NCBI RefSeq assembly: GCF_000204415.1
Contig: NC_015416.1
Coordinates: 1,178,001-1,242,000, forward strand
Origin: Methanothrix soehngenii GP6
Lineage (GTDB): Archaea; Halobacteriota; Methanosarcinia; Methanotrichales; Methanotrichaceae
DNA: 64,000 nt
Direction: 5' to 3'
Part shown: one piece after another, positions 3,875-54,408 of the stretch
Layout: every line of letters starts with the position of its first letter
Numbering within the stretch: position 1 is the first letter of the stretch
Made by a program: the position numbers and the translations under genes
Notes under the pieces: generated by a model
Told to the model about the DNA's origin: nothing
The model's database searches: none
What the model saw: only the letters and a program-made list of their open reading frames with translations

Positions 3875-5404
3875 TCAGCTCCTGGGGGTGACGGAGAAAC
3901 TTCCTAACGTCTCCTCCAGTTCGAATCCACGAACATCATTTACCCTCAAGACCAGGTCGTACTCGCCCGGATCGAGCAGGGCGGTGGAGAAGGATCCCTG
4001 ATATGCATCCCCAGAGGCTACCAGGCGGCCGTAGCCCTTTGCCTCTTCTCCCGACTGATATGCTCTAACCGTCAGCTGGTTGAGGTCATAGAGAGCCTCC
4101 ATACGCACGGTGACCTTTATATCGTCTCCCACTCTGGCCTGGGTGGGATTAAGAGCCTTATCGATGATGGAGATCTGCCGGACCTGATCGCCCATAATGG
4201 GATAACGATCTAAGGAGGAACTGTCTATCTCATAGGGCAGGTCGCCAAATCCATCCGCACCCAGAACATTCTGTTCCGGTCCCTGGTAATCATCGCTCCC
4301 ATGGTAGTCGCTCCACAGGTTGCCCCCCAGCGGATAGCTGGCATTCCATGAGTTCTCTCCTCTATCCTCCGCCTGGATCACATTGTAACTGATCTTATTT
4401 CTGTAGATCAGGTTCTGGCTCGAATCCAGGAAGATGCCGGTCTGGCTGTCCGAGATTGTGTTATCGATGATGGTATTGCCGTTCGAATTGCTCTGGATCT
4501 GCAGGCCATAGCGCCCATTTGCCTCTATCAGATTGCCGGATATGCTGTTATATCCAGAGTCCAGGAGGGTCAGGCCGGCGACTACGTTCTCGATCATGCT
4601 GTTATTTCGGATCAGGTTATCAGTGCAGTCGAAGCGGAGGTCCAGGCCGGAGTTGGTGTTCCGGGAGAGGTCGTTGTATTCTATTATGTTATTGCTGCAA
4701 TCTGTGAACATGTACAGGCCGTACATATTTCCTTGAAGGACGTTGCCCCGGATGGTGTTATTGCTGCAGGAGGGGAAGAGGTTTATGCCGTAGGCGCCAT
4801 TGCCATAGGCCACATTATCAAGGATCAGATTGTCATTGGAGTTGGAGAGGTATATTCCATACCACCCCTCACCCCCCAGTCCGTTGAAGCTGGCGTTGTT
4901 TCCCTGGATGATATTGCCGTCGGAAAAAAGGAGGGCAATCCCTGGCTGGGTGCACCGGATGACGGTATTGTTGGCCACAGTGCAGCCCCGAACGTTGTTC
5001 AGCTTTATGCCATAAAACCCATTCCTGACGAGAAAGCCGGATATGCTGACATCGCTCGCTTCTATATTCACGCAGGCGTCCCTCTCTCCCGCCTGGATGA
5101 CTGCCCCATTGCCTATCAGGTTCAGGCTCTTTCCTATGGATATCTTCTCGTAAGTCCCCGGAGCCACCAGGAGGGTATCGCCAGGCTGGGCGGCGTTGAT
5201 TGCCGCTTGCAGATCGGAGCTGACGGTTATGGAAGCAGCGCTGGCAAGGGAGGCGATCAGCATAAAAGAATAAATAAGGGATACCGCCCAAATGGTCGAG
5301 CGACCTATGCCGCGCGAAGGATGATATGCATTCGATAAAGCCGGAGCATGGCATTTCCCCGTGGCACTGGGATGGGTTAATGATGGTTTCATTTTGAGGC
5401 TCAT
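3875..5404 (-). CDS. Secreted right-handed beta-helix (NosD-like) repeat protein
   Basis: 509 aa. After a long N-terminal segment there is a hydrophobic helix (about 38-57), then the typical opening of NosD/PbH1 proteins (DLQAAINAAQPGDTLLVAPGTYE) and at least ten beta-helix rungs rich in NNTI, GLYL and GNxI patterns up to about residue 390. A C-terminal beta-sandwich domain (about 405-505) follows. Family members are exported carbohydrate-binding or copper-site maturation proteins. No other nos gene is near, so a surface or cell-wall role is more likely than nitrous oxide reductase maturation. The start is uncertain because several in-frame ATGs lie upstream of the hydrophobic segment. It heads the minus-strand set with the rhodanese, subtilase and aldolase. 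Confidence 0.85.
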   Translation of the reverse strand: MSLKMKPSLTHPSATGKCHAPALSNAYHPSRGIGRSTIWAVSLIYSFMLIASLASAASITVSSDLQAAINAAQPGDTLLVAPGTYEKISIGKSLNLIGNGAVIQAGERDACVNIEASDVSISGFLVRNGFYGIKLNNVRGCTVANNTVIRCTQPGIALLFSDGNIIQGNNASFNGLGGEGWYGIYLSNSNDNLILDNVAYGNGAYGINLFPSCSNNTIRGNVLQGNMYGLYMFTDCSNNIIEYNDLSRNTNSGLDLRFDCTDNLIRNNSMIENVVAGLTLLDSGYNSISGNLIEANGRYGLQIQSNSNGNTIIDNTISDSQTGIFLDSSQNLIYRNKISYNVIQAEDRGENSWNASYPLGGNLWSDYHGSDDYQGPEQNVLGADGFGDLPYEIDSSSLDRYPIMGDQVRQISIIDKALNPTQARVGDDIKVTVRMEALYDLNQLTVRAYQSGEEAKGYGRLVASGDAYQGSFSTALLDPGEYDLVLRVNDVRGFELEETLGSFSVTPRS

Positions 5405-5564
5405 AGAGATCCATCTATTGATGATCGATCTATTTTATAAAGATTCATGGCTCATATGGGTTTAGGATAGGGGGTAAAAAGTCTTAGGATCTTCTAATAT
5501 AGGCTACATATGAAGGTAAGCTTTTTTATCAATTGAAAGGTATATGCAGTGTTGGTAAATTCAA

Positions 5565-5570
5565 TGGAGG
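5565..5570 (+). promoter_or_regulatory. Ribosome binding site deciding a TTG start
   Basis: A GGAGG core lies eight bases before the TTG at 5579. There is no in-frame ATG near the signal peptide, so this site supports the TTG start of the DNRLRE protein. Confidence 0.7.
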
Positions 5571-5578
5571 AATAGAGT

Positions 5579-6166
5579 TTGAGATACTGGCTTGCGATTA
5601 TTGGCGCACTTCTCCTGCTGGCGGCCGCCTGCAGCGCAGGGAGCTTTGAAGCGAAAATCGATGTGGATACCTACGTCAATTCTATTGAAGAGGAAGAAAG
5701 CTATGGCGATAGCGATCTACTGTGGGTGTCTTCCCAGGACGATGACGATGATGATGCTTCTATAAATGAGACCTACCTCAGCTATGTGAATCTCTTCGGA
5801 TCGCAGGGAATCTTCAATCCGGATCAGATCAAATCTGCTACTCTCACCCTTAACGTCGCCCGGGTGGATGACGAGGGCGAGATCAAGGCTTACTTCCTGG
5901 AGGGAGCGACATTAAACACCCTGACCTGGAAGGATAAGGCAGAATATGACCTTGATGTCTCATCAGATTCCGTTGAGATAGATGAGGCAGAGGATGTGAT
6001 TGAGCTGGATGTAACACCCATAATCAAAAAGGCGGTCGAGGTCTGTGCAGAAGGGTGCCCCTACAGCATAGTCCTGGTCGGTGAGGATGATGTCTCTGTG
6101 GCATTCGTGTCCAGTGAGGCATCAGATGAGGATATGCCTGTCCTTGAGTACGTAACTGAAGAGTAA
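5579..6166 (+). CDS. Secreted DNRLRE-domain protein
   Basis: 195 aa from a TTG start. Residues 1-21 form a signal peptide (hydrophobic stretch ending in ACSAGS). The rest is one DNRLRE domain: the AKIDVDTYVNS opening, a YLSYVNL strand, the SATLTLNV strand and the TLTWKDKAEYD loop typical of this family, then LDVTPIIKKAV. DNRLRE domains occur on archaeal surface proteins and disaggregatases of methanosarcinae and are thought to bind or cut cell-surface polysaccharide. This copy is a single domain with no catalytic partner and is very acidic (runs of Asp and Glu near 35-55 and 140), so it may bind calcium or be a structural envelope protein. It stands alone between divergent neighbours. Confidence 0.8.
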   Translation: MRYWLAIIGALLLLAAACSAGSFEAKIDVDTYVNSIEEEESYGDSDLLWVSSQDDDDDDASINETYLSYVNLFGSQGIFNPDQIKSATLTLNVARVDDEGEIKAYFLEGATLNTLTWKDKAEYDLDVSSDSVEIDEAEDVIELDVTPIIKKAVEVCAEGCPYSIVLVGEDDVSVAFVSSEASDEDMPVLEYVTEE

Positions 6167-37873: not shown

Positions 37874-39140
37874 ACTACTCCGGCCTAAAGACCGGAGCTT
37901 TCAGTAGCCCTGAAAGGACAGCCTTGATGCTTGGAAGTCCTTCCGAGCCTCCAGGCCGGTCTACATAGCGGCCCAAGAAAGCTATATTCTTAGCACCATT
38001 GAAATCAGCATCGCCAGACCAACCACACACAGGACACTTGAAGCTCTTGCCATTCCTGATTCCATGCTCACCGCACTGATGGCACGTCTGGCTGGAGTAT
38101 GCGGGGTCCACCAGAACCAGAGGAACACCCGCCGCGAGAGCCTTATAGCTAAGGAACTCCTTAAGCTGGTATAAGGCCCAACCACTGACTTTTCGTCTAT
38201 GGTTTTTTCCTGCTTTCTGGTTGACGCCTTCTCTAATTCCGGTTAGATCTTCCAGAGCAATTTTGGCAGGAATCTCCTGGGCTCTGGTCACAATGGCTTT
38301 GCTGATTTCGTGGTTGATCTGCCGTTGGTAACGCGCTTCTTTGCCTGATAGTCGTTGCTGAAGCTCTCGGCATCTTCGCCTTGAACTCCTTGTACCTTTC
38401 ACGGCTTTCTGTTGAAGAACAGCACGCATAGACGCATAATGATTCTTGATTAGCTTGATAGTCTTTCCGCCAAACTTCTGGCCTTCGGAGGTCACAGCTA
38501 TATCAGTTATACCAAGATCGACACCTAGAACTGTATCAACATGTATCTGCTCCGGTGCTTCGCTTTTAACCTGGATGCTGATATAGTATTCAGATCCTTT
38601 CTTACAAAGCGTTGCGCTTGTCGGTTTAGAATCCTTGAGTCTGGTTCTCTGATAGTCGCCTAGAACCAACTTGATTCGTTGTCTCGATCTAAGAAGAGTC
38701 ACGCTGACTTCTTCGTCTTTCTCTCTTAAAGCAAAGATCCTAGTATCATAATCTATACTGGTTGGTTCAAAGTTCTTAACTGATGAATGATCCTTCATGG
38801 CAGTCTTACGGTTAGATGCAACGCGATTGATAGCCCTGATTGCCAGATTGGCAGAAAGACCAAACTTAGCTCGAACATCTTGGTATACAATGCCCTGAAT
38901 ACGGACCTTATTTCTGAGCTTAGCAGGCGTATTCTGGTTTATCCAATTGCAGGCATCCGCAAAGGCTTTCAGAGTATCCTCCATCTCTTCGGCCTGGGAG
39001 TCTGTTGGACTTAACTTGCATTGGACGGTTAACACCTGCTCAGTCATCAGTAGGCAGTATATTCACTAAGTGATATAAAGGTTTTGGTGGGCTACTTGCG
39101 GCTTTCCTCCCCGCCCTGAAGAGCGGGGCTTCCAGCCTGT
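37870..39140 (-). mobile_element. TnpB-only element of the IS200/IS605 superfamily (copy 2)
   Basis: On the minus strand the right end is GTAGTTTAC, outer base about 37870, preceded by a CTCCGG/CCGGAG hairpin at about 37877-37896. The left end carries the hairpin CCCCGC/GCGGGG at 39109-39128 inside a GGAAGCCCCGCTCTTCAGGG-type block that closely matches the left end of copy 3. There is no tnpA. The left limit is estimated from the hairpin. Confidence 0.72.
37875..39047 (-). CDS. tnpB: TnpB RNA-guided endonuclease (IS605 OrfB family)
   Basis: 390 aa. The RuvC residues are intact: Asp in GVDLGITDIAV, Glu in ALEDLTGIRE and Asp in DADFNGAKNI. A four-cysteine zinc ribbon (CHQCG, CPVCG) is present. 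Compact proteins of this type are RNA-guided nucleases that help the element persist at its site. It is clearly closer to the TnpB at 47517 (shared LSGKEAR, DPAYxSQ and LEDLxGIRE blocks) than to the one at 7535. The stop codon overlaps the right-end motif. It is convergent with the ileS-DUF151 unit. Confidence 0.92.
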   Translation of the reverse strand: MTEQVLTVQCKLSPTDSQAEEMEDTLKAFADACNWINQNTPAKLRNKVRIQGIVYQDVRAKFGLSANLAIRAINRVASNRKTAMKDHSSVKNFEPTSIDYDTRIFALREKDEEVSVTLLRSRQRIKLVLGDYQRTRLKDSKPTSATLCKKGSEYYISIQVKSEAPEQIHVDTVLGVDLGITDIAVTSEGQKFGGKTIKLIKNHYASMRAVLQQKAVKGTRSSRRRCRELQQRLSGKEARYQRQINHEISKAIVTRAQEIPAKIALEDLTGIREGVNQKAGKNHRRKVSGWALYQLKEFLSYKALAAGVPLVLVDPAYSSQTCHQCGEHGIRNGKSFKCPVCGWSGDADFNGAKNIAFLGRYVDRPGGSEGLPSIKAVLSGLLKAPVFRPE

Positions 39141-39197: not shown

Positions 39198-40953
39198 AAA
39201 AATTTCAGCCCGCTAACGGGCCGAAGGGTATGTAGAAGATCCACACGAAGTAGACCAGCATCAGTACTAATCCCACAGGCACTCCCAGGCGAGCCCACTC
39301 CTTTGATGTTATTCCCAGCTTGTTCGCGGCGATGATATTGGGTATGTTTCCTGGAACCAGCATGCCCCCAGCGATCAATAGCCCCATCAGCGCCGCGGTG
39401 ATCTGACCTATGGTCAGGCTGGGAGCAATCTCCGCCGCAGTCAATGTGGCGTTATCAAGGATCGCCGATAACATGTTCACCCAATAGAGAACCTCGGACG
39501 GTATGGCTGTGAAGTACTTATCGATGATGATCTTCATGCCGGCGCCTAATAGGAGGAGGGCCATCACGAATACGTAAACCTTGGCAGCCCTCGCGCCCAC
39601 ATCTCTCAGAGTCTCAGTGTCCTCCACCATTGTAACGCACTCCTGCTTGGTCGCCTTACCGGTGAATAATACGCCCAGCACTCCCAGGGCCAGAACCCCC
39701 GGAATTACGTATAAAGCCAGCTTCTCGAAGAGGAAGAAGAATCCGGCGTTATATGGTGGCCCCTGCAGCTTGGATATGGCAATGGTTGAGAGCGGCTCGC
39801 CCAGCGGTGTGAGCACAGCTCCCAGTCCTATGGCGAAACAGGTGATGATCACCAGGTTGATCTTGTCCTTGCGCTCCAGAGGCATGCAATTGACCAGCTC
39901 CACCAGCAGAAGGGCAGCGATGATAGCGGTGATGACGCTGGACACTAATCCCAGGCCGACGATCATCACAAAGGCGACTGCTTTAATGGATACATTATCC
40001 AGGACATAGCTCATTGCGCTCTGAGCTCGGCTACGGCCGTAGTGGAAGGCCATCCCTGCCACCAGCACCGCAGGCACGATGCCCTTTACCACCGGCTCCA
40101 TAACCGCCTCTTCCACCAGCCTCATCTCCCAGACGCCGGCTATGGTGACGGAGAGCACTCCCATCACAAATAAGAATGCCTCGAGGTTATGCTCGATCTT
40201 CTTCACGGTAAAGGGTCCAATCAGCACTGCCAGGGCTACCAATCCCAAACCAATATCGACCGCTGTTATGCCATAGCCCAGATTGACCGTTGCAGTCTGG
40301 AGCATCGAGATTCTGCTTGCTGCGGCGGCAGACGCTATGGCCACAGCCAGACTCGCCGCAGCCGATAGGAGCATATAAAATCCATTGTCAGCTTGGGTAG
40401 AATGCGATCTCAAGTGCCTGGTTATGGCCACGAATGACACGGCCCAGGTCGCAACTATTGCCACGGCCAAAGCGATGTTAGTCGTTGTCATCAAACCAAT
40501 GGTGGAAGGAGAGTTCAGCATCTTCAATATCTCGCTTCCGGCTGCGGCAGACGCTATCGCTACAGCCAGACTCGTCGCAGTGGAGAAGAGTATATAAAAA
40601 CCATTGTCAGCTTGAGTGGAATGCGATTTCAAGTGCCTGGTTATGGCTACAAAGGATATGCCCCAGATTAATACCACCGCTATTGCCAAAATGATATCTG
40701 CCGTTGTCACCAAACGCATGCCGGTGGGAGCAGTCTGTACCATTAACAGCTTACTTCCGGCTGCAACTGCTATTGCCACTGCGAGACTTGCAAATATGGA
40801 GAAGAGCATGTAAAACCCATTGTCGTCATGGGTGGCGTGCGATCTAAGGTATTTATTGATCGCCGCGAAAGATAAGCCCCAGCTCGTCAATGCTGCAATC
40901 GAGGCTATTATGCTTGCGGTTTCTATGCCTGCATACATCTTCGTTCACCTTTG
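39198..40953. repeat. Long direct repeat, copy A (paired with 45681-47436)
   Basis: About 1.75 kb, offset by 6483 bp from copy B, with no length change. Most of it is nearly identical at the DNA level, but two patches differ clearly (about 39965-40005 and 40457-40640). The mosaic pattern fits gene conversion between paralogues. Recombination between copies would delete about 6.5 kb holding four genes. Confidence 0.9.
39205..40938 (-). CDS. DUF1646 transporter-like protein with triplicated two-helix N-terminal module (long form 1)
   Basis: 577 aa. Residues 1-222 hold three tandem modules of about 73 aa, each with two membrane helices and a SHxTxxDNGFY loop (starting at 33, 105 and 179). Residues about 224-577 are a full DUF1646 domain: VKKIEHNLEAFLFVMGVL, FHYGRSRAQSAM, the LTPLGEPLS motif, LQGPPYNAGFFF, ILDNATLTAAE and LVPGNIPNIIAANKLGI. 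DUF1646 belongs to the ion-transporter fold group. The GEPLS and DNAT motifs resemble substrate-site loops of NhaD/ArsB-type carriers, so it is likely a cation or anion carrier. An AGGTGAACG ribosome site is shared with its paralogues. It lies downstream of half-length form 1. Confidence 0.85.
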   Translation of the reverse strand: MYAGIETASIIASIAALTSWGLSFAAINKYLRSHATHDDNGFYMLFSIFASLAVAIAVAAGSKLLMVQTAPTGMRLVTTADIILAIAVVLIWGISFVAITRHLKSHSTQADNGFYILFSTATSLAVAIASAAAGSEILKMLNSPSTIGLMTTTNIALAVAIVATWAVSFVAITRHLRSHSTQADNGFYMLLSAAASLAVAIASAAAASRISMLQTATVNLGYGITAVDIGLGLVALAVLIGPFTVKKIEHNLEAFLFVMGVLSVTIAGVWEMRLVEEAVMEPVVKGIVPAVLVAGMAFHYGRSRAQSAMSYVLDNVSIKAVAFVMIVGLGLVSSVITAIIAALLLVELVNCMPLERKDKINLVIITCFAIGLGAVLTPLGEPLSTIAISKLQGPPYNAGFFFLFEKLALYVIPGVLALGVLGVLFTGKATKQECVTMVEDTETLRDVGARAAKVYVFVMALLLLGAGMKIIIDKYFTAIPSEVLYWVNMLSAILDNATLTAAEIAPSLTIGQITAALMGLLIAGGMLVPGNIPNIIAANKLGITSKEWARLGVPVGLVLMLVYFVWIFYIPFGPLAG

Positions 40954-41100: not shown

Positions 41101-41889
41101 CTAAGTTGGACACGGATGCCCTTTATCCCCGATGCAAGCATCGGGGTATTGCGGCAAAAAAATAATAAGAAGGAGGGCTCCTGCAAACATGCATACCCTT
41201 GCACTCCAAATTGCTATTCTTTTATGAGCGGACGCTCTTCCATGAGCCTGCTTCCTTATCGAGTTCATATTCTCCTCGGCGAAGAACATAGATATCAAGC
41301 CAAGGGCCAATATGCTCAGGAATATGTACAGGCTTTGCAGTTCCGGCGGCAAGAAGCCTGCTGAAGGAAGCTCACCTTGCATTCTTGTAATAGCTATTGC
41401 CGAGGATGATCCATCTACCAGAGCCAGAGCGGCTCCTAGAGAAATGGAAAGACATCCCAATATGGTAATTTTTGCCCTCGTCTTCCGCATGAGTGGCAGA
41501 TGATTCACTGCTTCCACTAGCATAAAGAATGAGAGTATTGGTGTAATAATAGCAGCCAATAGTCCCAGCACAATGACAATCTCCAGGAAGATCACTTTCA
41601 TTGTGATCCTATCTAAGAGGATGGCGTTTATGTTGTGCAAGAAGTCGGGCCTGATATAGTGTGCTATCAATCCAGCCAGCAATACAGTTAGCACTATGCC
41701 GACTACTAATGGTTCTTGGATCGCTTCTTCAACTATGCCTATATGCCAGGATCTTGAGATAGCAACGGCGCATATGCTCATTAGTAATAAGAACATCTCA
41801 AGGTTTTGTTCAATCCTTTTGATCAATAGAGGACCCAAGAGCACGGCCAAAAATATGGGAATCAACCCTATTTCGACTCCTGCATACAT
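41101..41889 (-). CDS. Half-length DUF1646 paralogue (half form 1), C-terminus altered by insertion
   Basis: 262 aa. It aligns with the first two thirds of DUF1646 (IGLIPIFLAVLLGPLLIKRIEQNLE, the membrane segments around IVIVLGLLAAIITPI, LQSLYIFL) but stops where the last three or so helices should begin, so the ILDNAT region is absent. The conserved GEPLS is replaced by DGSSS (ALVDGSSSAIAITRMQGELP), so transport by the usual mechanism is doubtful. About eight membrane helices are expected. The last 22 residues (after GALLLI) come from an inserted hairpin-rich segment; the old ending VGVAFGVNI is still readable at 40981-41010. It could be a regulatory partner of the full-length proteins; this is inference. 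Confidence 0.75.
   Translation of the reverse strand: MYAGVEIGLIPIFLAVLLGPLLIKRIEQNLEMFLLLMSICAVAISRSWHIGIVEEAIQEPLVVGIVLTVLLAGLIAHYIRPDFLHNINAILLDRITMKVIFLEIVIVLGLLAAIITPILSFFMLVEAVNHLPLMRKTRAKITILGCLSISLGAALALVDGSSSAIAITRMQGELPSAGFLPPELQSLYIFLSILALGLISMFFAEENMNSIRKQAHGRASAHKRIAIWSARVCMFAGALLLIIFLPQYPDACIGDKGHPCPT
41127..41146. repeat. Perfect inverted repeat with GATGC/GCATC core
   Basis: CCCCGATGC and GCATCGGGG separated by AA, inside the inserted segment at the end of half-form 1. The core matches the hairpins at 41975 and 51986. Confidence 0.85.
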
Positions 41890-43821: not shown

Positions 43822-43989
43822 CTACTCTATCTTATCACTCATCGAAGGCAGACCTTTGCGATTCATATCAAAGAAAATCACCGTTGCAACAATTGCTCCT
43901 GCGATCATCCCAATAATTCCGGGGGTGCCCAAAAAGTATCCCACAGCGGCTCCAATAAATAACACTATTATATATGTAAGTGTATTCAT
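43822..43989 (-). CDS. Small two-helix membrane protein
   Basis: 55 aa beginning MNTLTYIIVLFIGAAVGYFL. Two hydrophobic helices (about 4-20 and 24-40) are joined by a GTPGIIG turn, with a charged tail (DMNRKGLPSMSDKIE). A GAGGAG ribosome site lies three bases before the ATG. It resembles short GlsB/YeaQ-like glycine-rich helical hairpins in style only. It sits within the DUF1646 cluster, upstream of canonical copy 1, and may be a small accessory subunit. Confidence 0.65.
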   Translation of the reverse strand: MNTLTYIIVLFIGAAVGYFLGTPGIIGMIAGAIVATVIFFDMNRKGLPSMSDKIE

Positions 43990-44225: not shown

Positions 44226-45584
44226 TTAGGCGTGTGCTAGGGATTCCATCAGATCTCTGGGCGTGATAATTCCCCACAGCGCGCCATTATCCGAGACTAC
44301 GAGCTGCCTTGCACCCGTTTTTCCCATCATCCTTACCGCCTCGAAGATGGGCGCATCGGAGTTGATTGTAAGGAAGCCCGGAGTCATGATTTCGCGCACC
44401 TCTCTATCAGTTCTGCCTTCTGCTACCGCCTTGGCTATATCTACCATGTTCACAAGACCGGGGGATCTATCTTCCACTAAAGCCTCCTGGGCCCCGTTGA
44501 TGACCAATATCCTCGATGCTTCTCTCAGAGTGGTGTTAGGACTGATGCGGACTGCACGCCGGGCAACCGTCTTGACTGAGCGTCTGGGAATCGAGATCAT
44601 TTCAGTGAGATCCAGGACAATCCTGCTCGCGGTGATGTCTAATGCCGCAACCTTGCCGCGAATATATAGCTCGCTAATAGGAGTAGGTCCAACCTCAACC
44701 TCATCCCCTACGCTGAAGTCTTTGATATTGCCGCTTACGCGAATGGATATGCAGCTTTGGCAGGGTGGGCGCATGGCATTATTGAAGACAATTTCGGTTG
44801 CGCTCGCGCCCTCGACCACAATGCCATTCTTAACTATGTGCACTGCAACTTCGTCTCCGTCCCCATTGTGGCCCCTGCTCAATGCGTCGTACGCTGTGGC
44901 CGTGGCCGTATACCCACCCCTGGGGCCAGTGACGCTCTCTACAAGGTTTAAGGCCTTAAGAGATCGCATTTGGATCCTTATCGTTTCTGGATTGCGGTCC
45001 ATCAACTCTCCGATCTCCTTGGCCTTGACTGCCCGGCTATCTGTACGGTGGAGGTTAACCAAAGTGGATAGAGTATCTCTCTGAACTGGTGTTAAATCTA
45101 TTTGGAGCCCTAGGCTAAGTATTCCGATAGCTGCAATGACGAATATCGTGTATGGGTCTAGATTTGTCAAGAAATTCGTAGCAGATGCCGATCCCTCAAG
45201 TCTTAGGGACGTTATTGGGGAGGGAGGCAAACCAACAGTGGTTAATGCTCCAAAGCCTGTCGAGAGCCCTCCCATCACGACAAACCTTGCTGTAGCCTTG
45301 CGATTGAAGGAAAGCATGAATGCTACCACACAAAGCACCAAGAGCGGAAGTATCGGCGTGATGAAGATAGCTAATAGCCCCAGCATGACTATGATCGTGG
45401 CAAGTAATACATTCAAAGGGATTTCCTGCAATGCAGAGCCCAATTTGCCATCGAACCATAATTCCCTGCGGCGAGCTAATGCATCTACTAAAGGCTTAGC
45501 TGGTGCCATAATCTTCATTGCAGCCGAATATAGCTCAGATAAATACTGCCGTAGCATTTTTGTTGTCCCACTAGGAATGACCAT
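44226..45584 (-). CDS. DUF1646-derived membrane segment fused to an HTH-CBS transcription regulator
   Basis: 452 aa. Residues about 56-160 are the middle of a DUF1646 protein (LATIIVMLGLLAIFITPI, GFGALTTVGLPPSPITSLRL) with GEPLS changed to GLPPS, about four helices in all. Residues about 164-235 are a winged helix (LTPVQRDTL, AKEIGELMDRNPETIRIQMR, TGPRGGYTATATAYDAL). About 245-335 is a beta domain and 340-452 a CBS pair. The part from 164 on matches a soluble HTH-CBS regulator common in methanogens. The fusion would tether a DNA-binding, nucleotide-sensing protein to the membrane through a transporter fragment. It lies inside the DUF1646 cluster. Confidence 0.82.
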   Translation of the reverse strand: MVIPSGTTKMLRQYLSELYSAAMKIMAPAKPLVDALARRRELWFDGKLGSALQEIPLNVLLATIIVMLGLLAIFITPILPLLVLCVVAFMLSFNRKATARFVVMGGLSTGFGALTTVGLPPSPITSLRLEGSASATNFLTNLDPYTIFVIAAIGILSLGLQIDLTPVQRDTLSTLVNLHRTDSRAVKAKEIGELMDRNPETIRIQMRSLKALNLVESVTGPRGGYTATATAYDALSRGHNGDGDEVAVHIVKNGIVVEGASATEIVFNNAMRPPCQSCISIRVSGNIKDFSVGDEVEVGPTPISELYIRGKVAALDITASRIVLDLTEMISIPRRSVKTVARRAVRISPNTTLREASRILVINGAQEALVEDRSPGLVNMVDIAKAVAEGRTDREVREIMTPGFLTINSDAPIFEAVRMMGKTGARQLVVSDNGALWGIITPRDLMESLAHA

Positions 45585-45680: not shown

Positions 45681-47436
45681 AAAAATTTCAGCCCGCTAAC
45701 GGGCCGAAGGGTATGTAGAAGATCCACACGAAGTAGACCAGCATCAGTACTAATCCCACAGGCACTCCCAGGCGAGCCCACTCCTTTGATGTTATTCCCA
45801 GCTTGTTCGCGGCGATGATATTGGGTATGTTTCCTGGAACCAGCATGCCCCCAGCGATCAATAGCCCCATCAGCGCCGCGGTGATCTGACCTATGGTCAG
45901 GCTGGGAGCAATCTCCGCTGCAGTCAATGTGGCGTTATCAAGGATCGCCGATAACATGTTCACCCAATAGAGAACCTCGGACGGTATGGCTGTGAAGTAC
46001 TTATCGATGATGATCTTCATGCCGGCGCCTAATAGGAGGAGGGCCATCACGAATACGTAAACCTTGGCAGCCCTCGCGCCCACATCTCTCAGAGTCTCAG
46101 TGTCCTCCACCATTGTAACGCACTTCTGCTTGGTCGCCTTACCGGTGAATAATACGCCCAGCACTCCCAGGGCCAGAACCCCCGGAATTACGTATAAAGC
46201 CAGCTTCTCGAAGAGGAAGAAGAATCCGGCGTTATATGGTGGCCCCTGCAGCTTGGATATGGCAATGGTTGAGAGCGGCTCGCCCAGCGGTGTGAGCACA
46301 GCTCCCAGTCCTATGGCGAAACAGGTGATGATCACCAGGTTGATCTTGTCCTTGCGCTCCAGAGGCATGCAATTGACCAGCTCCACCAGCAGAAGGGCAG
46401 CGATGATAGCCGTGATGACGCTGGATATCAATCCCAGGCCGACGATCATCACAAAGGCCACCGCTTTGATTGAGGTATTATCCAATACATAGCTCATTGC
46501 GCTCTGAGCTCGGCTACGGCCGTAGTGGAAGGCCATCCCTGCCACCAGCACCGCAGGCACGATGCCCTTTACCACCGGTTCCATAACCGCCTCTTCCACC
46601 AGCCTCATCTCCCAGACGCCGGCTATGGTGACGGAGAGCACTCCCATCACAAATAAGAATGCCTCGAGGTTATGCTCGATCTTCTTCACGGTGAAGGGTC
46701 CAATCAGCACTGCCAGGGCTACCAATCCCAAACCAATATCGACCGCTGTTATGCCATAGCCCAGATTGACCGTTGCAGTCTGGAGCATCGAGATTCTGCT
46801 TGCTGCGGCGGCAGACGCTATGGCCACAGCCAGACTCGCCGCAGCCGATAGGAGCATATAAAATCCATTGTCAGCTTGGGTAGAATGCGATCTCAAGTGC
46901 CTGGTTATGGCCACGAATGACACGGCCCAGGTCGCAACTATTGCCATGGCTACAGCGATATTCGTCGTTGTCATCAAATCCATGGCACGGGGAGTGGTCT
47001 GCATCTTCAATAGCTCCCTTCCGGCTGCGGCAGACGCTATCGCTACAGCCAGACTCGTCGCAGTGGAGAGGAGCATTATAAACCCATTGTCAGCTTGAGT
47101 GGAATGCAATTTCAAGTGCCTGGTTATGCCTACAAAGGATATGCCCCAGATTAACACCACCGCTATTGCCAAAATGATGTCTGCCGTTGTCATCAAACGC
47201 ATGCCGGAGGGAGCAGTCTGTACCATTAACAGCTTACTTCCGGCTGCAACTGCTATTGCCACTGCGAGACTTGCAAATATGGAGAAGAGCATGTAAAACC
47301 CATTGTCGTCATGGGTGGCGTGCGATCTAAGGTATTTATTGATCGCCGCGAAAGATAAGCCCCAGCTCGTCAATGCTGCAATCGAGGCTATTATGCTTGC
47401 GGTTTCTATCCCTGCATACATATTCGTTCACCTCAA
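45681..47436. repeat. Long direct repeat, copy B (paired with 39198-40953)
   Basis: Matches copy A with a constant offset of 6483 bp. Differences concentrate in the second N-terminal module (about 46940-47123) and near 46450-46490. It ends about 5-15 bases before the left end of TnpB element 3. Confidence 0.9.
45688..47421 (-). CDS. DUF1646 transporter-like protein with triplicated N-terminal module (long form 2)
   Basis: 577 aa, the same length and architecture as long form 1: three modules of two helices (1-222), then a complete DUF1646 domain with LTPLGEPLS and ILDNATLTAAE intact. The two proteins differ by only about 20 residues, most of them in module 2 (for example GRELLKMQTTPRAMD here). 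All transport motifs are kept. The AGGTGAACG ribosome site survives, but TnpB element 3 begins within about 20 bases of the start codon, so the native promoter and the link to half form 2 have been separated. The gene may be silent or driven by the element. Confidence 0.85.
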   Translation of the reverse strand: MYAGIETASIIASIAALTSWGLSFAAINKYLRSHATHDDNGFYMLFSIFASLAVAIAVAAGSKLLMVQTAPSGMRLMTTADIILAIAVVLIWGISFVGITRHLKLHSTQADNGFIMLLSTATSLAVAIASAAAGRELLKMQTTPRAMDLMTTTNIAVAMAIVATWAVSFVAITRHLRSHSTQADNGFYMLLSAAASLAVAIASAAAASRISMLQTATVNLGYGITAVDIGLGLVALAVLIGPFTVKKIEHNLEAFLFVMGVLSVTIAGVWEMRLVEEAVMEPVVKGIVPAVLVAGMAFHYGRSRAQSAMSYVLDNTSIKAVAFVMIVGLGLISSVITAIIAALLLVELVNCMPLERKDKINLVIITCFAIGLGAVLTPLGEPLSTIAISKLQGPPYNAGFFFLFEKLALYVIPGVLALGVLGVLFTGKATKQKCVTMVEDTETLRDVGARAAKVYVFVMALLLLGAGMKIIIDKYFTAIPSEVLYWVNMLSAILDNATLTAAEIAPSLTIGQITAALMGLLIAGGMLVPGNIPNIIAANKLGITSKEWARLGVPVGLVLMLVYFVWIFYIPFGPLAG

Positions 47437-47439
47437 TTC

Positions 47440-48631
47440 GGCAGGAGGCCCCGTCCTTCAGGGTGGGGAGGAATGCCGAAAGTTCTATATGTATATGGAT
47501 CGTTATTATCTATGCAATGATGCAAACCCTCAAAGTCAAACTGGATACCTCGGCTGAAGATAACCGTGCGCTCCTTGAGACTATGCATCAGTTCAACGCC
47601 GCCTGCAATTACGTGGGGGAAAAGGCTTTTGAACTCCATACAGCCAACAAAATCGAATTGCAGAAGATTGTTTATCGTGATATTCGGGAAATGTTTGGCA
47701 TCTCTGCTCAGATGGCTGTTAGGGCCATATCCAAGTCCTGCGAAGCCTACAAGAGAGATAAGTCCATTAAGCCCAAATTTGATCCCAATGGAGCTGTTAT
47801 CTATGATCAGAGAATCATGTCCTGGAAGGGACTCGATAGGGTATCCTTGCTGACGCTCGATGGCAGAATTAAGCTGCCTGTCGTGATCTGTGATTACCAT
47901 GCTCCAAGGCTTGATAGAATCCGAGGTCAGGCGGATCTCATCTTCCAGAATGGGACATTCTATCTTTGTGTTGTGGTCGATGTTCCCGAGCCAAAGAAGT
48001 CTGTTCCTCAAAATGTTCTTGGTGTTGATCATGGAATCAAGAATATTGCAGTAGATTCTTCGGGTGAAGAGTTCTCTGGTGAGAAGATTGAAAAGGTTAG
48101 ATCCAAAATCGATAACCTCAAAGCCGATCTTCAGAGCTGTGGAACAGATAGCGCAAAACGTCATCTGAAGAAGCTTTCCGGTAAAGAAGCTAGGTTCCAT
48201 AGAGACGTTAATCATTGCATCTCTAAGAAGCTGGTTGCGAAGGCCATAGACACCTCGTCTGCTATCGTGTTGGAAGATCTTTCTGGCATAAGAGAGAGGA
48301 TAACGGTTCCAAAGGCTCAGAGGCGCAAACAGCATAACTGGAGCTTCTATCAACTCAGGCAGTATATCGACTACAAGGCCGCCATAGCTGGTGTGCCCTT
48401 GATCTGCATTGATCCTGCTTATACTTCCCAGGAATGCCCTATCTGTCATCTTATATCTCGATCCAACCGTCCTACAAGGGACGAATTTTCGTGTGTCTGC
48501 TGCGGCTTCTCTGGTCCGGCTGACACAATCGCAGCACGGAATATTGCTGCAAGGGTATCAGTCAATATGCCCATCGTGGCCCGACTTTTTGCGGAGCTAC
48601 AAGCCCATCCCTTCAGGGAGGGGTAGTTGAC
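47440..48631 (+). mobile_element. TnpB-only element of the IS200/IS605 superfamily (copy 3)
   Basis: Left end with the hairpin CCCCGTCC-TTCA-GGGTGGGG at 47449-47468; right end GTAGTTGAC at 48623-48631, preceded by a CCC-TTCA-GGG-type hairpin. No tnpA. It separates half form 2 from long form 2, which are neighbours in the other copy of the pair. Its left end is very like that of element 2. Confidence 0.75.
47517..48626 (+). CDS. tnpB: TnpB RNA-guided endonuclease (IS605 OrfB family)
   Basis: 369 aa from the ATG at 47517 (MMQTLKVKLDTS); the frame extends upstream but only through the left-end hairpin. The RuvC residues are intact: Asp in GVDHGIKNIAV, Glu in VLEDLSGIRE and Asp in PADTIAARNI. 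The zinc ribbon is CPIC(H)...CVCCG, so the first pair is slightly unusual. It is related to the TnpB at 37875. The TAG stop lies inside the right-end motif. It is on the opposite strand to the surrounding DUF1646 genes. Confidence 0.9.
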   Translation: MMQTLKVKLDTSAEDNRALLETMHQFNAACNYVGEKAFELHTANKIELQKIVYRDIREMFGISAQMAVRAISKSCEAYKRDKSIKPKFDPNGAVIYDQRIMSWKGLDRVSLLTLDGRIKLPVVICDYHAPRLDRIRGQADLIFQNGTFYLCVVVDVPEPKKSVPQNVLGVDHGIKNIAVDSSGEEFSGEKIEKVRSKIDNLKADLQSCGTDSAKRHLKKLSGKEARFHRDVNHCISKKLVAKAIDTSSAIVLEDLSGIRERITVPKAQRRKQHNWSFYQLRQYIDYKAAIAGVPLICIDPAYTSQECPICHLISRSNRPTRDEFSCVCCGFSGPADTIAARNIAARVSVNMPIVARLFAELQAHPFREG

Positions 48632-48668: not shown

Positions 48669-49424
48669 TTAGATATCGACTCCGAATGCCACACCAACAA
48701 GAAGAAGGGCTCCTGCAAACATGAATAATCTAACACCCCAAATTGCCATTTTCTCATGAGCTGCTATTCCTTCAAAAGCCTGCATCTCCATGGCTTTTAC
48801 CTTCTCCTCCGAGAAGAATATGCTTATCAAGCCAAGTACTAGAATAATCAGTAGTATGTATAGGCTTTGCAGCTCCAATGGCAAGATGCCTGCTGAAGGA
48901 AGTTCTCCCTGCATTTTCGTAACAGCAATCTCCGATGAAAGCCCTTCTACATAAGGCAGAGCAGCCCCTAGAATGATGGAAATGCATCCCAATGCCGTGA
49001 TGATCGCTCTTGACCCGCGTGGGAGGGACAGACAGTTCACCGCTTCCACGAGCACGAAGAATGGAATTATCGGTGTGATAATGGCCGCGGATAGTCCCAA
49101 CACAACTACAATCTCCAGGAATATCACTTTCATGGTGATCCCATCCAGGAGAATGTCGTTTATGCCCTGCAAAAAGCGCGGCCTTCGGTAGTGCACTATC
49201 AATCCAGCCACTAAGACAGAAAGCAGTATGCCAATTACTACTGGTTCCTGGACCGCTTCCTCAACCAGGTCTATGTGCCAGGATCTTGACAATACAATGG
49301 CGCAGGCACCTATCAGAAACAAGAATGCTTCAAGATTGCGTTCGATCCTCTTGATCAACAGGGGACCTAAGAGCACAGCCAAAAATATCGCAATCAATCC
49401 TGTTTCAACTGGGATTAACACCAT
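48669..49424 (-). CDS. Half-length DUF1646 paralogue (half form 2)
   Basis: 251 aa. It aligns with the first two thirds of DUF1646 (LIAIFLAVLLGPLLIKRIERNLEAF, IIVVVLGLSAAIITPIIPFF-like segments, LQGELPSAG-type block) and lacks the C-terminal helices with ILDNAT. GEPLS is changed to EGLSS (PYVEGLSSEIAVTKMQGELP). The intact ending GALLLVGVAFGVDI shows the natural C-terminus of this form and proves that half form 1 was altered by an insertion. A conserved length in two copies argues that the half size is a stable form rather than decay. An AGGTGAT ribosome site lies before the ATG. Confidence 0.78.
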   Translation of the reverse strand: MVLIPVETGLIAIFLAVLLGPLLIKRIERNLEAFLFLIGACAIVLSRSWHIDLVEEAVQEPVVIGILLSVLVAGLIVHYRRPRFLQGINDILLDGITMKVIFLEIVVVLGLSAAIITPIIPFFVLVEAVNCLSLPRGSRAIITALGCISIILGAALPYVEGLSSEIAVTKMQGELPSAGILPLELQSLYILLIILVLGLISIFFSEEKVKAMEMQAFEGIAAHEKMAIWGVRLFMFAGALLLVGVAFGVDI

Positions 49425-50894: not shown

Positions 50895-51770
50895 CTAGGT
50901 CGTGCATTCAGCTCTTGCTCTGATCACTAAGACCGGCCGATCGCCAATCTTCGCCACATCGTAGGTCGTGCTCCCCACACCCAACTGCTTCAACCAGCCC
51001 GTTCCATGGGAGCTCATCGCAATCAGCGACACATTCTCCTTCTCGGCCAGGGAGATTATCTCCTCAGCGGGATTTCCCACGCTTGTGTGGATTTTGACCT
51101 TTATTCTGGCCTCCTCAAGCTCATCCCGGATGACATTGAGCTTCCTGGTTGTCTCCTCTGTTTGGGCTTCGATCTCTCTCCAGGTCTCTCCCCGATAGAC
51201 TACATGCTGGAGCAATATCTCTCCTACCCCTTTAGTCCTCTTGATGAAAGCAATCGCCTCTTCGGCCGGCTTCGATAAGTCGGTGGGACAGAGTATTCTT
51301 GAAAAGGGATGCGAGCAGAATTGCTCTAAGCTTGGGCCGCTCCTGCCTTCCAGGATCTTGTAGCGCATAAGAAGAATATTTGTGTTCCCATAGCGAAGAA
51401 CGTTCTTGGCGACGTTTCCCAAAAATATGCCCTCCACGACACCCTTGCCTCTCGCGCCCATGACGATAACGGAACTCTCTTCTTCATCCGCTACCTTCTG
51501 GATCACTCTGGAGATATCCCCCTCCATTATGGCCTCTGTTCTCGTCTTGACGCTGAGGCCTCGGCTGCTCAGAATCTTGCTCTGTTCCGTTAGGTTTGCT
51601 TTAGATTCATCGATCCGCCCTCCTGGGTTCCATACCTTGGCGAGAGGATCTGCAGGGCCGATCACATGCAGGAGCACCACTTCGTTCACGCCCGGAAGCT
51701 CTTTTACGCACTCCAGGACCTTCTGGGAGTACTTGGAAAAATCCGTGGGGAATAAAACCTTTTCAAACAT
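50895..51770 (-). CDS. Tandem universal stress protein (two UspA domains)
   Basis: 291 aa from the ATG at 51770 (MFEKVLFPTDFSKYSQ); the frame is open upstream, but the Usp fold starts here and a GGAGAT sequence precedes it. Two UspA domains (1-150 and 155-285). The first has the nucleotide-loop pattern GARGKGVVEGIFLGN, with Asn in place of the usual Ser/Thr; the second has SSHGTGWLKQLGVGST. Such proteins bind ATP or other nucleotides and often regulate transporters. It sits directly downstream of DUF1646 canonical copy 2, with another tandem Usp upstream of that gene. Confidence 0.88.
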   Translation of the reverse strand: MFEKVLFPTDFSKYSQKVLECVKELPGVNEVVLLHVIGPADPLAKVWNPGGRIDESKANLTEQSKILSSRGLSVKTRTEAIMEGDISRVIQKVADEEESSVIVMGARGKGVVEGIFLGNVAKNVLRYGNTNILLMRYKILEGRSGPSLEQFCSHPFSRILCPTDLSKPAEEAIAFIKRTKGVGEILLQHVVYRGETWREIEAQTEETTRKLNVIRDELEEARIKVKIHTSVGNPAEEIISLAEKENVSLIAMSSHGTGWLKQLGVGSTTYDVAKIGDRPVLVIRARAECTT

Positions 51771-51978
51771 ATCAACCATCTCCGGAATTAATTCATCATT
51801 ATGATATTTCAATTCATCGACTATAACAATTAATAATGAACTAGTTAAATGCTTGCCTTCAAGAGGGCGCATTAGAAGGGGAGATATCTGGATCAGATGA
51901 AACTCGAAAATGCAATCCACTGGCAATTTGCCAAACGTTTTCAAGGGAGACTTTCTGGAGCAATCACATGCTCCTCAC

Positions 51979-53544: not shown

Positions 53545-54408
53545 CTAATAAGCAGCCATCTTCTCCTGCCTCAATATCAGGACCGGCCTGGAAGCGGAGT
53601 TGGCCACGTCATAAGCGGTGCTTCCTATTCTGCCCTTCTTTATGGCCGAGGCTCCCTGAGAGCTGATGGCAATCAAGGAGACATCCTCTTTCTCAGCCTC
53701 CGATCTGATAACCTCGGTAGGCTGGCCCACAACCACCTTGGATGATACCTGCATGCCTGCCATCTTCAGATTCTGGGCGATCTCCTCGATCCTTTCTTTG
53801 GCCAATGCGACATTGGCCTCGATCTCCTCGTCGGTCTCCCCCTTGGAGACGACATTGAGCAGCACTATCTCTCCAATTCCCTTCAGGCTTTTCAGGAAGG
53901 ACAGGGCGACCTCAGAAGTCTGGGAGAGGTCGGTTGGGAAGAGAATTCTGGCAAAGACTCGGGCGCAATACTTCTCCATGGTATTATCATCCAGGGTCTT
54001 GTAGCGCATGATCAAGAGGTGCGTCCTGCCGAAGCGAAGCACATTACGTGAAGAGCTTCCCAGCAGAGTGCTCATGATCAGGCTCCTTCCCCGCGCTCCC
54101 ATGGCCACCAGGGAGACGTTCTCTTCCATTGCCACTTTATTGATGGCGCTTGCCACCTCGCCCTCTAAAACGGATACCGCCTTTACATTAACCGTTACCC
54201 CGGGGGATTTAATGGCGTTCTTCTCCTCTTCCAGCTTCTTCTCGATATCCTTTATCTCCGATACCGGATCCCAGACACGGGCGAGCGGATCTCTAGAAAT
54301 GACATTGAGAAGTAGTACCTCTTTCAATCCCGGCATTTCGCCGATGCATTCGATCACTTTCTTGGCATGTTTGGAGAAATCTGTGGCGATCAACACCTTT
54401 TCAAACAT
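53545..54408 (-). CDS. Tandem universal stress protein (two UspA domains)
   Basis: 287 aa starting MFEKVLIATDFSKHAKKV, with an AAGGTGAGC site upstream. The first domain has the full ATP-binding pattern G2XG9XGS in MGARGRSLIMSTLLGSS, so nucleotide binding is likely. In the second domain (SSQGASAIKKGRIGST) the second glycine is Ala. It is a clear paralogue of the protein at 50895 and lies upstream of DUF1646 canonical copy 2 on the same strand. It is probably a cytoplasmic regulator that may act on the transporter. Confidence 0.88.
   Translation of the reverse strand: MFEKVLIATDFSKHAKKVIECIGEMPGLKEVLLLNVISRDPLARVWDPVSEIKDIEKKLEEEKNAIKSPGVTVNVKAVSVLEGEVASAINKVAMEENVSLVAMGARGRSLIMSTLLGSSSRNVLRFGRTHLLIMRYKTLDDNTMEKYCARVFARILFPTDLSQTSEVALSFLKSLKGIGEIVLLNVVSKGETDEEIEANVALAKERIEEIAQNLKMAGMQVSSKVVVGQPTEVIRSEAEKEDVSLIAISSQGASAIKKGRIGSTAYDVANSASRPVLILRQEKMAAY

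Follow-up and report, generated by a model that had tools for sequence, protein, structure and literature searches.

A DUF1646-derived membrane segment joined to an HTH-CBS regulator: a conserved gene fusion in Methanothrix and a putative membrane-anchored transcription regulator

Has a DNA-binding regulator of Methanothrix soehngenii GP6 been joined to a piece of the transporter family whose genes surround it, and could such a protein act at the membrane? The gene in question lies in a stretch of 64,000 nucleotides (contig NC_015416.1, positions 1,178,001 to 1,242,000; hereafter the window) of a 3.03-Mb genome assembled in two contigs. A first-pass annotation had read it as a DUF1646 fragment (residues about 56-160) with an altered GEPLS motif, followed at about residues 164-452 by a regulator of a soluble type that begins at its usual LTPVQRD. 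It had proposed a membrane-tethered one-component regulator built from the neighboring transporter family. It had also named topology prediction and a search for the same fusion elsewhere as checks, and an artefact joining two separate genes as the main danger.

The layout of the gene and its surroundings is summarized in Table 1. The gene reads from 45584 to 44226 on the minus strand and encodes 452 amino acids. A plus-strand reading was rejected because of 21 in-frame stops. Since the other fusions described below align from M10 (MLRQYLSEL) of the window protein, the true translation start is probably at about 45557, not at 45584. The Pfam matches to DUF1646, HrcA_DNA-bdg, and CBS are far above chance. 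DUF1646 (PF07854) matches residues 48-157 with 40.2 bits against a curated cut-off of 21.4 bits (E 3.6e-10, profile positions 90-198 of 347), HrcA_DNA-bdg (PF03444) matches residues 163-237 with 92.7 bits (E 1.1e-26), and the two CBS domains score 63.8 bits (E 1.8e-17). Residues 163-452 form an archaeal regulator with an HrcA-type winged helix-turn-helix (wHTH), a middle domain, and a CBS pair; a PF03444 wHTH ahead of a CBS pair is the arrangement of the archaeal HrcA_DNA-bdg + CBS regulators. The C-terminal domain of HrcA (PF01628) had no Pfam match in the fusion at E values up to 1, so that the protein is not an HrcA repressor proper, and HTH_11 scored 13.8 bits, below its cut-off of 25. A fold search with the fusion model returned only CBS pairs, a result that barely probes the membrane and middle parts; the CBS pair of CcpN reached Z 15.6, level with many other CBS pairs. 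Both the DUF1646 alignment and the regulator from LTPVQRD, where the soluble relatives start, were thus borne out.

Table 1. Coordinates in the window of the fusion gene, its parts, and the neighboring DUF1646 genes.
Feature	Coordinates	Strand	Basis
Fusion gene, 452 aa including the N-terminal stretch before M10	44226..45584	minus	ORF list, Pfam, orthologs
N-terminal segment, residues 1-57; basic, long helix in model	45414..45584	minus	
Membrane part, residues 58-162, DUF1646-derived	45099..45413	minus	Pfam, alignment, model, hydropathy
GLPPS, residues 118-122, degenerate GEPLS of DUF1646 transporters	45219..45233	minus	alignment
Winged helix-turn-helix, residues 163-237, PF03444	44874..45098	minus	Pfam E 1.1e-26; model pLDDT ~90
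Predicted recognition helix, residues 199-211	44952..44990	minus	model and comparison with soluble paralogs
Middle beta domain, residues 238-335, without Pfam family	44580..44873	minus	Pfam, model
CBS-domain pair, residues 336-452, and stop	44226..44579	minus	Pfam; fold match Z 17 to CBS pairs
DUF1646 protein of 577 aa, next gene upstream, 103 bp away	45688..47421	minus	ORF list, Pfam; order matched in G001 contig 50
251-aa half-size DUF1646, C-terminal repeat missing, upstream in array	48669..49424	minus	Pfam, alignment, hydropathy
Second DUF1646 array, lacking the fusion; proteins of 378, 262 (half-size), and 577 aa	39205..43133	minus	

Is the fusion real? The search for the same fusion elsewhere found the full-length architecture in two more Methanothrix assemblies, G015 (CABMDX010000084), with 73% identity over residues 7-450, and G001 (JAPKYA010000093), with 76-82% identity. 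The orthologs lie at 4531-5784 (L038/L071) and 1295-2668 (L039/L009), have DUF1646 scores of 33.9 and 36.8 bits (cut-off 21.4), and one of them derives from a Methanothrix sp. MAG. No additional fusion was found among 50 genomes of the family or in 235 other genomes of the class (238 searched). PF03444 regulators as such are present in 240 of the 295 genomes sampled from the phylum. Unusually long frames with PF03444 in other members of the phylum were considered as further fusions and rejected; the six cases fetched read as soluble because their upstream frames are poorly hydrophobic and a methionine lies a few residues from the wHTH.

At the join, the codons pass directly from the last membrane helix into the regulator (...LSLGL-Q/K/N-I-D/E/G-LTPVQRD). 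Soluble relatives begin with M-E/D-LTPVQRD, and the fused regulator starts at exactly that LTPVQRD. None of the three fusion genes has an ATG, GTG, or TTG within the 17 codons that precede LTPVQRD; of start-type codons, the join itself contains just one, the TTG for the L of LTPVQRD in G015. With no usable start codon upstream of the join, the fusion frame is unlikely to yield a separate soluble protein. The feared artefact of assembly, frameshift, or gene calling draws on the fact that the two halves are indeed separate genes in relatives. It has a negligible chance of being right in view of the identical in-frame join without stops in three separate assemblies, the missing start codons, and purifying selection on either side of the join. 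The gene is a true, conserved gene fusion in three Methanothrix genomes.

Where did the two halves come from? The soluble ancestral regulator is also kept in the window genome (C1:1674977-1675867) and in G001 (L076); no soluble copy was found in G015, which is an incomplete assembly. In most of the Methanotrichaceae loci examined, the soluble gene stands between a radical SAM gene and a UMP-kinase-like gene. The regulator tree unites the three fusions in a single clade (100/100), whose long stem joins near the base of the genus-level soluble group; therefore, one duplication and one fusion suffice. As for the membrane half, stand-alone mini-DUF1646 genes encoding 98, 105, and 147 amino acids are present in G001, in the genome that contains the window (105 aa; L005 1507-1824, about C1:1357782-1358099), and in G034, which belongs to another genus. 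The mini gene sits after half-size and long (577-713 aa) DUF1646 genes in G001 contig 121 and in G034, and in G001 contig 50 the fusion holds the position of the mini behind the same half-size and 577-aa genes. Fusions and minis cluster together (96/96), apart from the half-size and full-length proteins, in an 84-column tree whose long branches make attraction possible. Taken together, trees and gene order show a single origin in Methanothrix, from a mini-DUF1646 gene that stood behind a DUF1646 transporter gene and a second copy of the family's soluble HTH-CBS regulator. The idea that the fusion was built from the neighboring transporter family holds in that the membrane part is DUF1646; its nearest relatives, however, are the stand-alone minis and not the full transporters.

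The 105-aa mini gene of the window genome (L005/L073) adjoins a tnpB-like copy nearly identical to window positions 37875-39047 and also neighbors a gene similar to those for Mrp/NuoL-type antiporter subunits. It may have split from the second array via an IS-linked rearrangement.

What is left of the transporter in the membrane part? A model of the 378-aa standard DUF1646 protein of the window (pTM 0.73) matches the IT superfamily end to end (NaDC3 Z 20.6, NaS1 20.1, ArsB 19.6, VcINDY about 15). By the known IT topology, I take the fused segment to comprise three elements of the first repeat: the re-entrant hairpin, helix 5, which is broken and bears the signature loop, and helix 6. In the fusion model, the elements before the wHTH at residue 166 are a hairpin (57-71 and 78-90), helix 5 (95-115 and 123-129), and helix 6 (144-158). 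The reliability of the modeled membrane part is moderate to low, with pLDDT about 75 for the hairpin and helix 5, about 50-55 for helix 6, and a pTM of 0.44. Basic residues are clustered at 38-47 and 95-100; therefore, by the positive-inside rule, the start and the hairpin exit would be cytoplasmic, as would the regulator that follows helices 5 and 6. In this topology check, hydropathy, charge pattern, and model concur, by prediction alone, on a membrane-spanning part with the DNA-binding side in the cytoplasm. The wHTH-CBS part is thus predicted to be cytoplasmic, with almost no linker to the membrane.

The full DUF1646 signature (GLxSSxIT, GEPLS, LDNAT, and GNIPN in both repeats) was not found in the fusion, whose first-repeat motifs are altered and whose second repeat is absent. 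The altered motif noted in the first pass is indeed GLPPS at residues 118-122 in place of GEPLS, and it is likewise degenerate in both orthologs (GLPSS and GSPIS). In the alignment, the GLxSSxIT serines and the GEPLS glutamate are missing from fusions, minis, and half-size proteins alike and are conserved in the full-length proteins. Transport by the fused segment is improbable because these motif residues are lost. No assay of DUF1646 itself was found in the literature.

How is the fusion maintained? All of its parts are under purifying selection, the membrane part less so. Pooled over the three fusions, omega (dN/dS) is 0.17 for the wHTH, 0.20 for the CBS pair, 0.34 for the middle domain, and 0.46 for the N-terminal segment; for comparison, it is 0.12 for the soluble regulator, 0.11 for the 577-aa protein, 0.20-0.24 for the half-size proteins, and 0.32 for the mini. 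Among 85 positions that are near-invariant (at least 95% conserved among 36 soluble regulators), 17 are altered in all three fusions. They include G200E, N204I/V, and Q207R in the recognition helix, positions that are invariant or nearly so in the soluble paralogs, and three further positions in the preceding helix. Among themselves the fusions show close agreement, and their recognition helices hardly differ. Such changes could reflect a new DNA target and would be equally consistent with a loss of DNA binding. A signal specific to the wHTH was considered and rejected: the changes number 10/46 in the wHTH and 7/30 in the middle domain, where those at 276 and 278 rest on an ambiguous gap, versus 0/9 in the CBS pair (P 0.19, not significant). 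CBS pairs of the same fold carry AMP, ATP, or SAM in several solved structures.

DUF1646 neighbors stand beside the fusion in all three species. The order in the window is a 129-aa gene, the 251-aa half-size gene, a tnpB-like gene, the 577-aa gene, and the fusion, and the order in G001 contig 50 is identical except for the tnpB-like insertion. By eye, promoter-like boxes were seen upstream of the 383-aa, half-size, and 378-aa genes. No clear box was seen upstream of the fusion, which suggests that it is co-transcribed, and the 577-aa gene is its probable co-transcribed partner. No single partner is fixed, because the gene directly upstream in G015 is a different, standard DUF1646 gene. The counterpart of the second array in G001 terminates in a stand-alone mini-DUF1646 gene. 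In the region from 37 to 57 kb of the window, a search for a Na+ riboswitch or other RNA control found only a tRNA.

Several further features of these arrays were observed. The tnpB-like gene (47373-48626, plus strand) between the half-size and 577-aa genes is not there in G001. The long DUF1646 proteins (39205-40938 and 45688-47421, minus strand) have tandem two-helix repeats of about 73 amino acids (219-bp period) before the transporter domain. A homolog from another genus (L075 2652-4793) is 713 aa long versus 577 aa; the number of two-helix repeats seems to vary, since this homolog apparently has more of them. The half-size proteins of 262 aa (41101-41889) and 251 aa (48669-49424), both on the minus strand, are without the second repeat and the GEPLS glutamate. 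They represent a truncated, selected, and probably non-transporting family conserved across species. Two universal-stress-protein genes lie within the DUF1646 array (50895-51944 and 53545-54408, minus strand), and a relative is found with DUF1646 genes of other genera (L074, L075). A 55-aa ORF (43822-43989, minus strand) located between the fusion and the second array encodes two probable membrane helices (MNTLTYIIVLFIGAAVGYFLG...).

What might the fusion do? My preferred reading, held with slightly better than even confidence, is that it is a polytopic, membrane-anchored one-component transcription regulator that docks on a co-encoded DUF1646 protein and controls a promoter of the array. From one IT-fold repeat, the membrane part would retain the hairpin and helices 5 and 6 as a non-transporting anchor, with the hairpin entering and leaving on the inside, helix 5 running outward, helix 6 running inward, and the regulator emerging a few residues from the membrane. 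Its docking partners would most likely be the DUF1646 proteins encoded alongside it, whether full-length or half-size. The wHTH would bind a promoter of the array, DUF1646 expression would become coupled to the state of the transporter, and the CBS pair may add an adenylate signal. Several points count against the proposal: the modeled membrane part has modest confidence, the recognition-helix changes would fit a loss of DNA binding equally well, the upstream neighbor differs in G015, and, since the linker is nearly absent, the DNA duplex would have to press against the membrane. Of the membrane-tethered one-component regulator proposed at the first pass, the true fusion, the predicted cytoplasmic DNA-binding and CBS part, and the similar array in three species stand, while regulation in cells is a prediction. 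A more specific version is doubtful: the degenerate half-repeat, taken from a transporter of the elevator type, may be a docking sensor that occupies or mimics the transport-domain interface of a co-encoded DUF1646 protein and passes its conformational or occupancy state to the wHTH-CBS part. If true, this would be an archaeal case of one protein carrying the transporter's state straight to a promoter.

The main rival places the HTH-CBS part off DNA, as a module that regulates or dimerises a DUF1646 transporter complex from the cytoplasm. CBS pairs act as regulatory modules in other transporters, and this role would suit the alteration of recognition-helix positions invariant in soluble paralogs, the near lack of a linker to the membrane, the conserved CBS pair, and the encoding together with transporters. 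It is nevertheless rather unlikely: the wHTH is the most constrained domain and scores 92.7 bits against its family, and its recognition helix is near-identical across the three fusions. One may also ask whether the membrane part does no more than anchor, or is a remnant in decay, so that the fusion merely restrains a surplus copy of the regulator without sensing or docking. It evolves faster than the regulator (omega 0.42, 95% 0.30-0.58), the upper bounds for the hairpin and helix 6 taken singly reach 1.0, the G001 ortholog has lost part of the N-terminal segment, and the motif residues are gone. Yet omega for the whole membrane part is clearly below 1 and falls to 0.26 in helix 5, the frame is preserved in three species, and the minis are preserved too (omega 0.32), so that this explanation appears unlikely.

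Could the membrane part bind Na+, or the transported ion, in a leftover half-site and switch the regulator directly? It derives from the repeat bearing the DUF1646 signature motif in an IT-fold transporter, and DUF1646 genes of bacteria are Na+-linked, their products being predicted Na+/H+ antiporters and some of them lying under Na+ riboswitches (PMC9337991). Direct Na+ sensing is disfavored, however, because none of the three fusions has the GLxSSxIT serines or the GEPLS glutamate; the opposite repeat, which is required for a full site, is missing as well. A direct ion switch is thus very improbable.

Bacterial membrane-anchored transcription regulators, namely TfoS, ChiS, and likewise CadC/ToxR, use simple anchors and often periplasmic sensors, whereas the anchor of the fusion is a fragment of a transporter fold. 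The transmembrane regulators TfoS and ChiS are proposed to control promoters while anchored in the membrane (PMC11856585), as the fusion is by prediction. Like the fusion as predicted, ArnR/ArnR1 of Sulfolobus is archaeal and combines an HTH with transmembrane parts in a single polypeptide. In ArnR, an HTH at the N-terminus is combined with a HAMP-like domain, a sensing domain, and two membrane helices at the C-terminus (PMC6396743), whereas the membrane part of the fusion is N-terminal and transporter-derived, and a CBS pair is present. The SLC5-histidine kinases CbrA/CrbS also use a membrane part of a transporter family as regulator input (PMC7096432, PMC5715377). They join an SLC5 symporter domain to a histidine kinase with a separate response regulator, while the fusion, in which neither an SLC5 nor a histidine kinase domain was matched, has a partial IT-fold repeat directly on a DNA-binding domain. 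The soluble archaeal HTH-CBS regulator (PF03444 + CBS), to which bacterial CcpN is similar in plan, has the same domains in the same order with 56-62% identity within the family; it differs from the fusion in the lack of a membrane part, in its place beside radical-SAM and UMP-kinase-like genes, and in its recognition-helix residues. With DUF1646 (PF07854) and the IT superfamily (VcINDY, NaDC3, ArsB), the fusion shares a homologous hairpin, helix 5, and helix 6; it holds about one-third of the family model and has lost the signature. By these comparisons, it would function most like a membrane-integrated one-component regulator. A DUF1646-HTH fusion is not described in the titles and abstracts of the literature found on DUF1646 and on transporter-regulator fusions.

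Archaeal membrane-anchored transcription regulators are little studied; the authors of the work on ArnR/ArnR1 call it the first biochemical analysis (PMC6396743). Protein sensors linked to Na+ biology are rare (PMC9337991). An anchor taken from a co-encoded transporter family would show sensing evolving out of transport via partial duplication and fusion. The fusion would also hint at what the expanded DUF1646 arrays respond to in Methanothrix, a major acetate-using methanogen.
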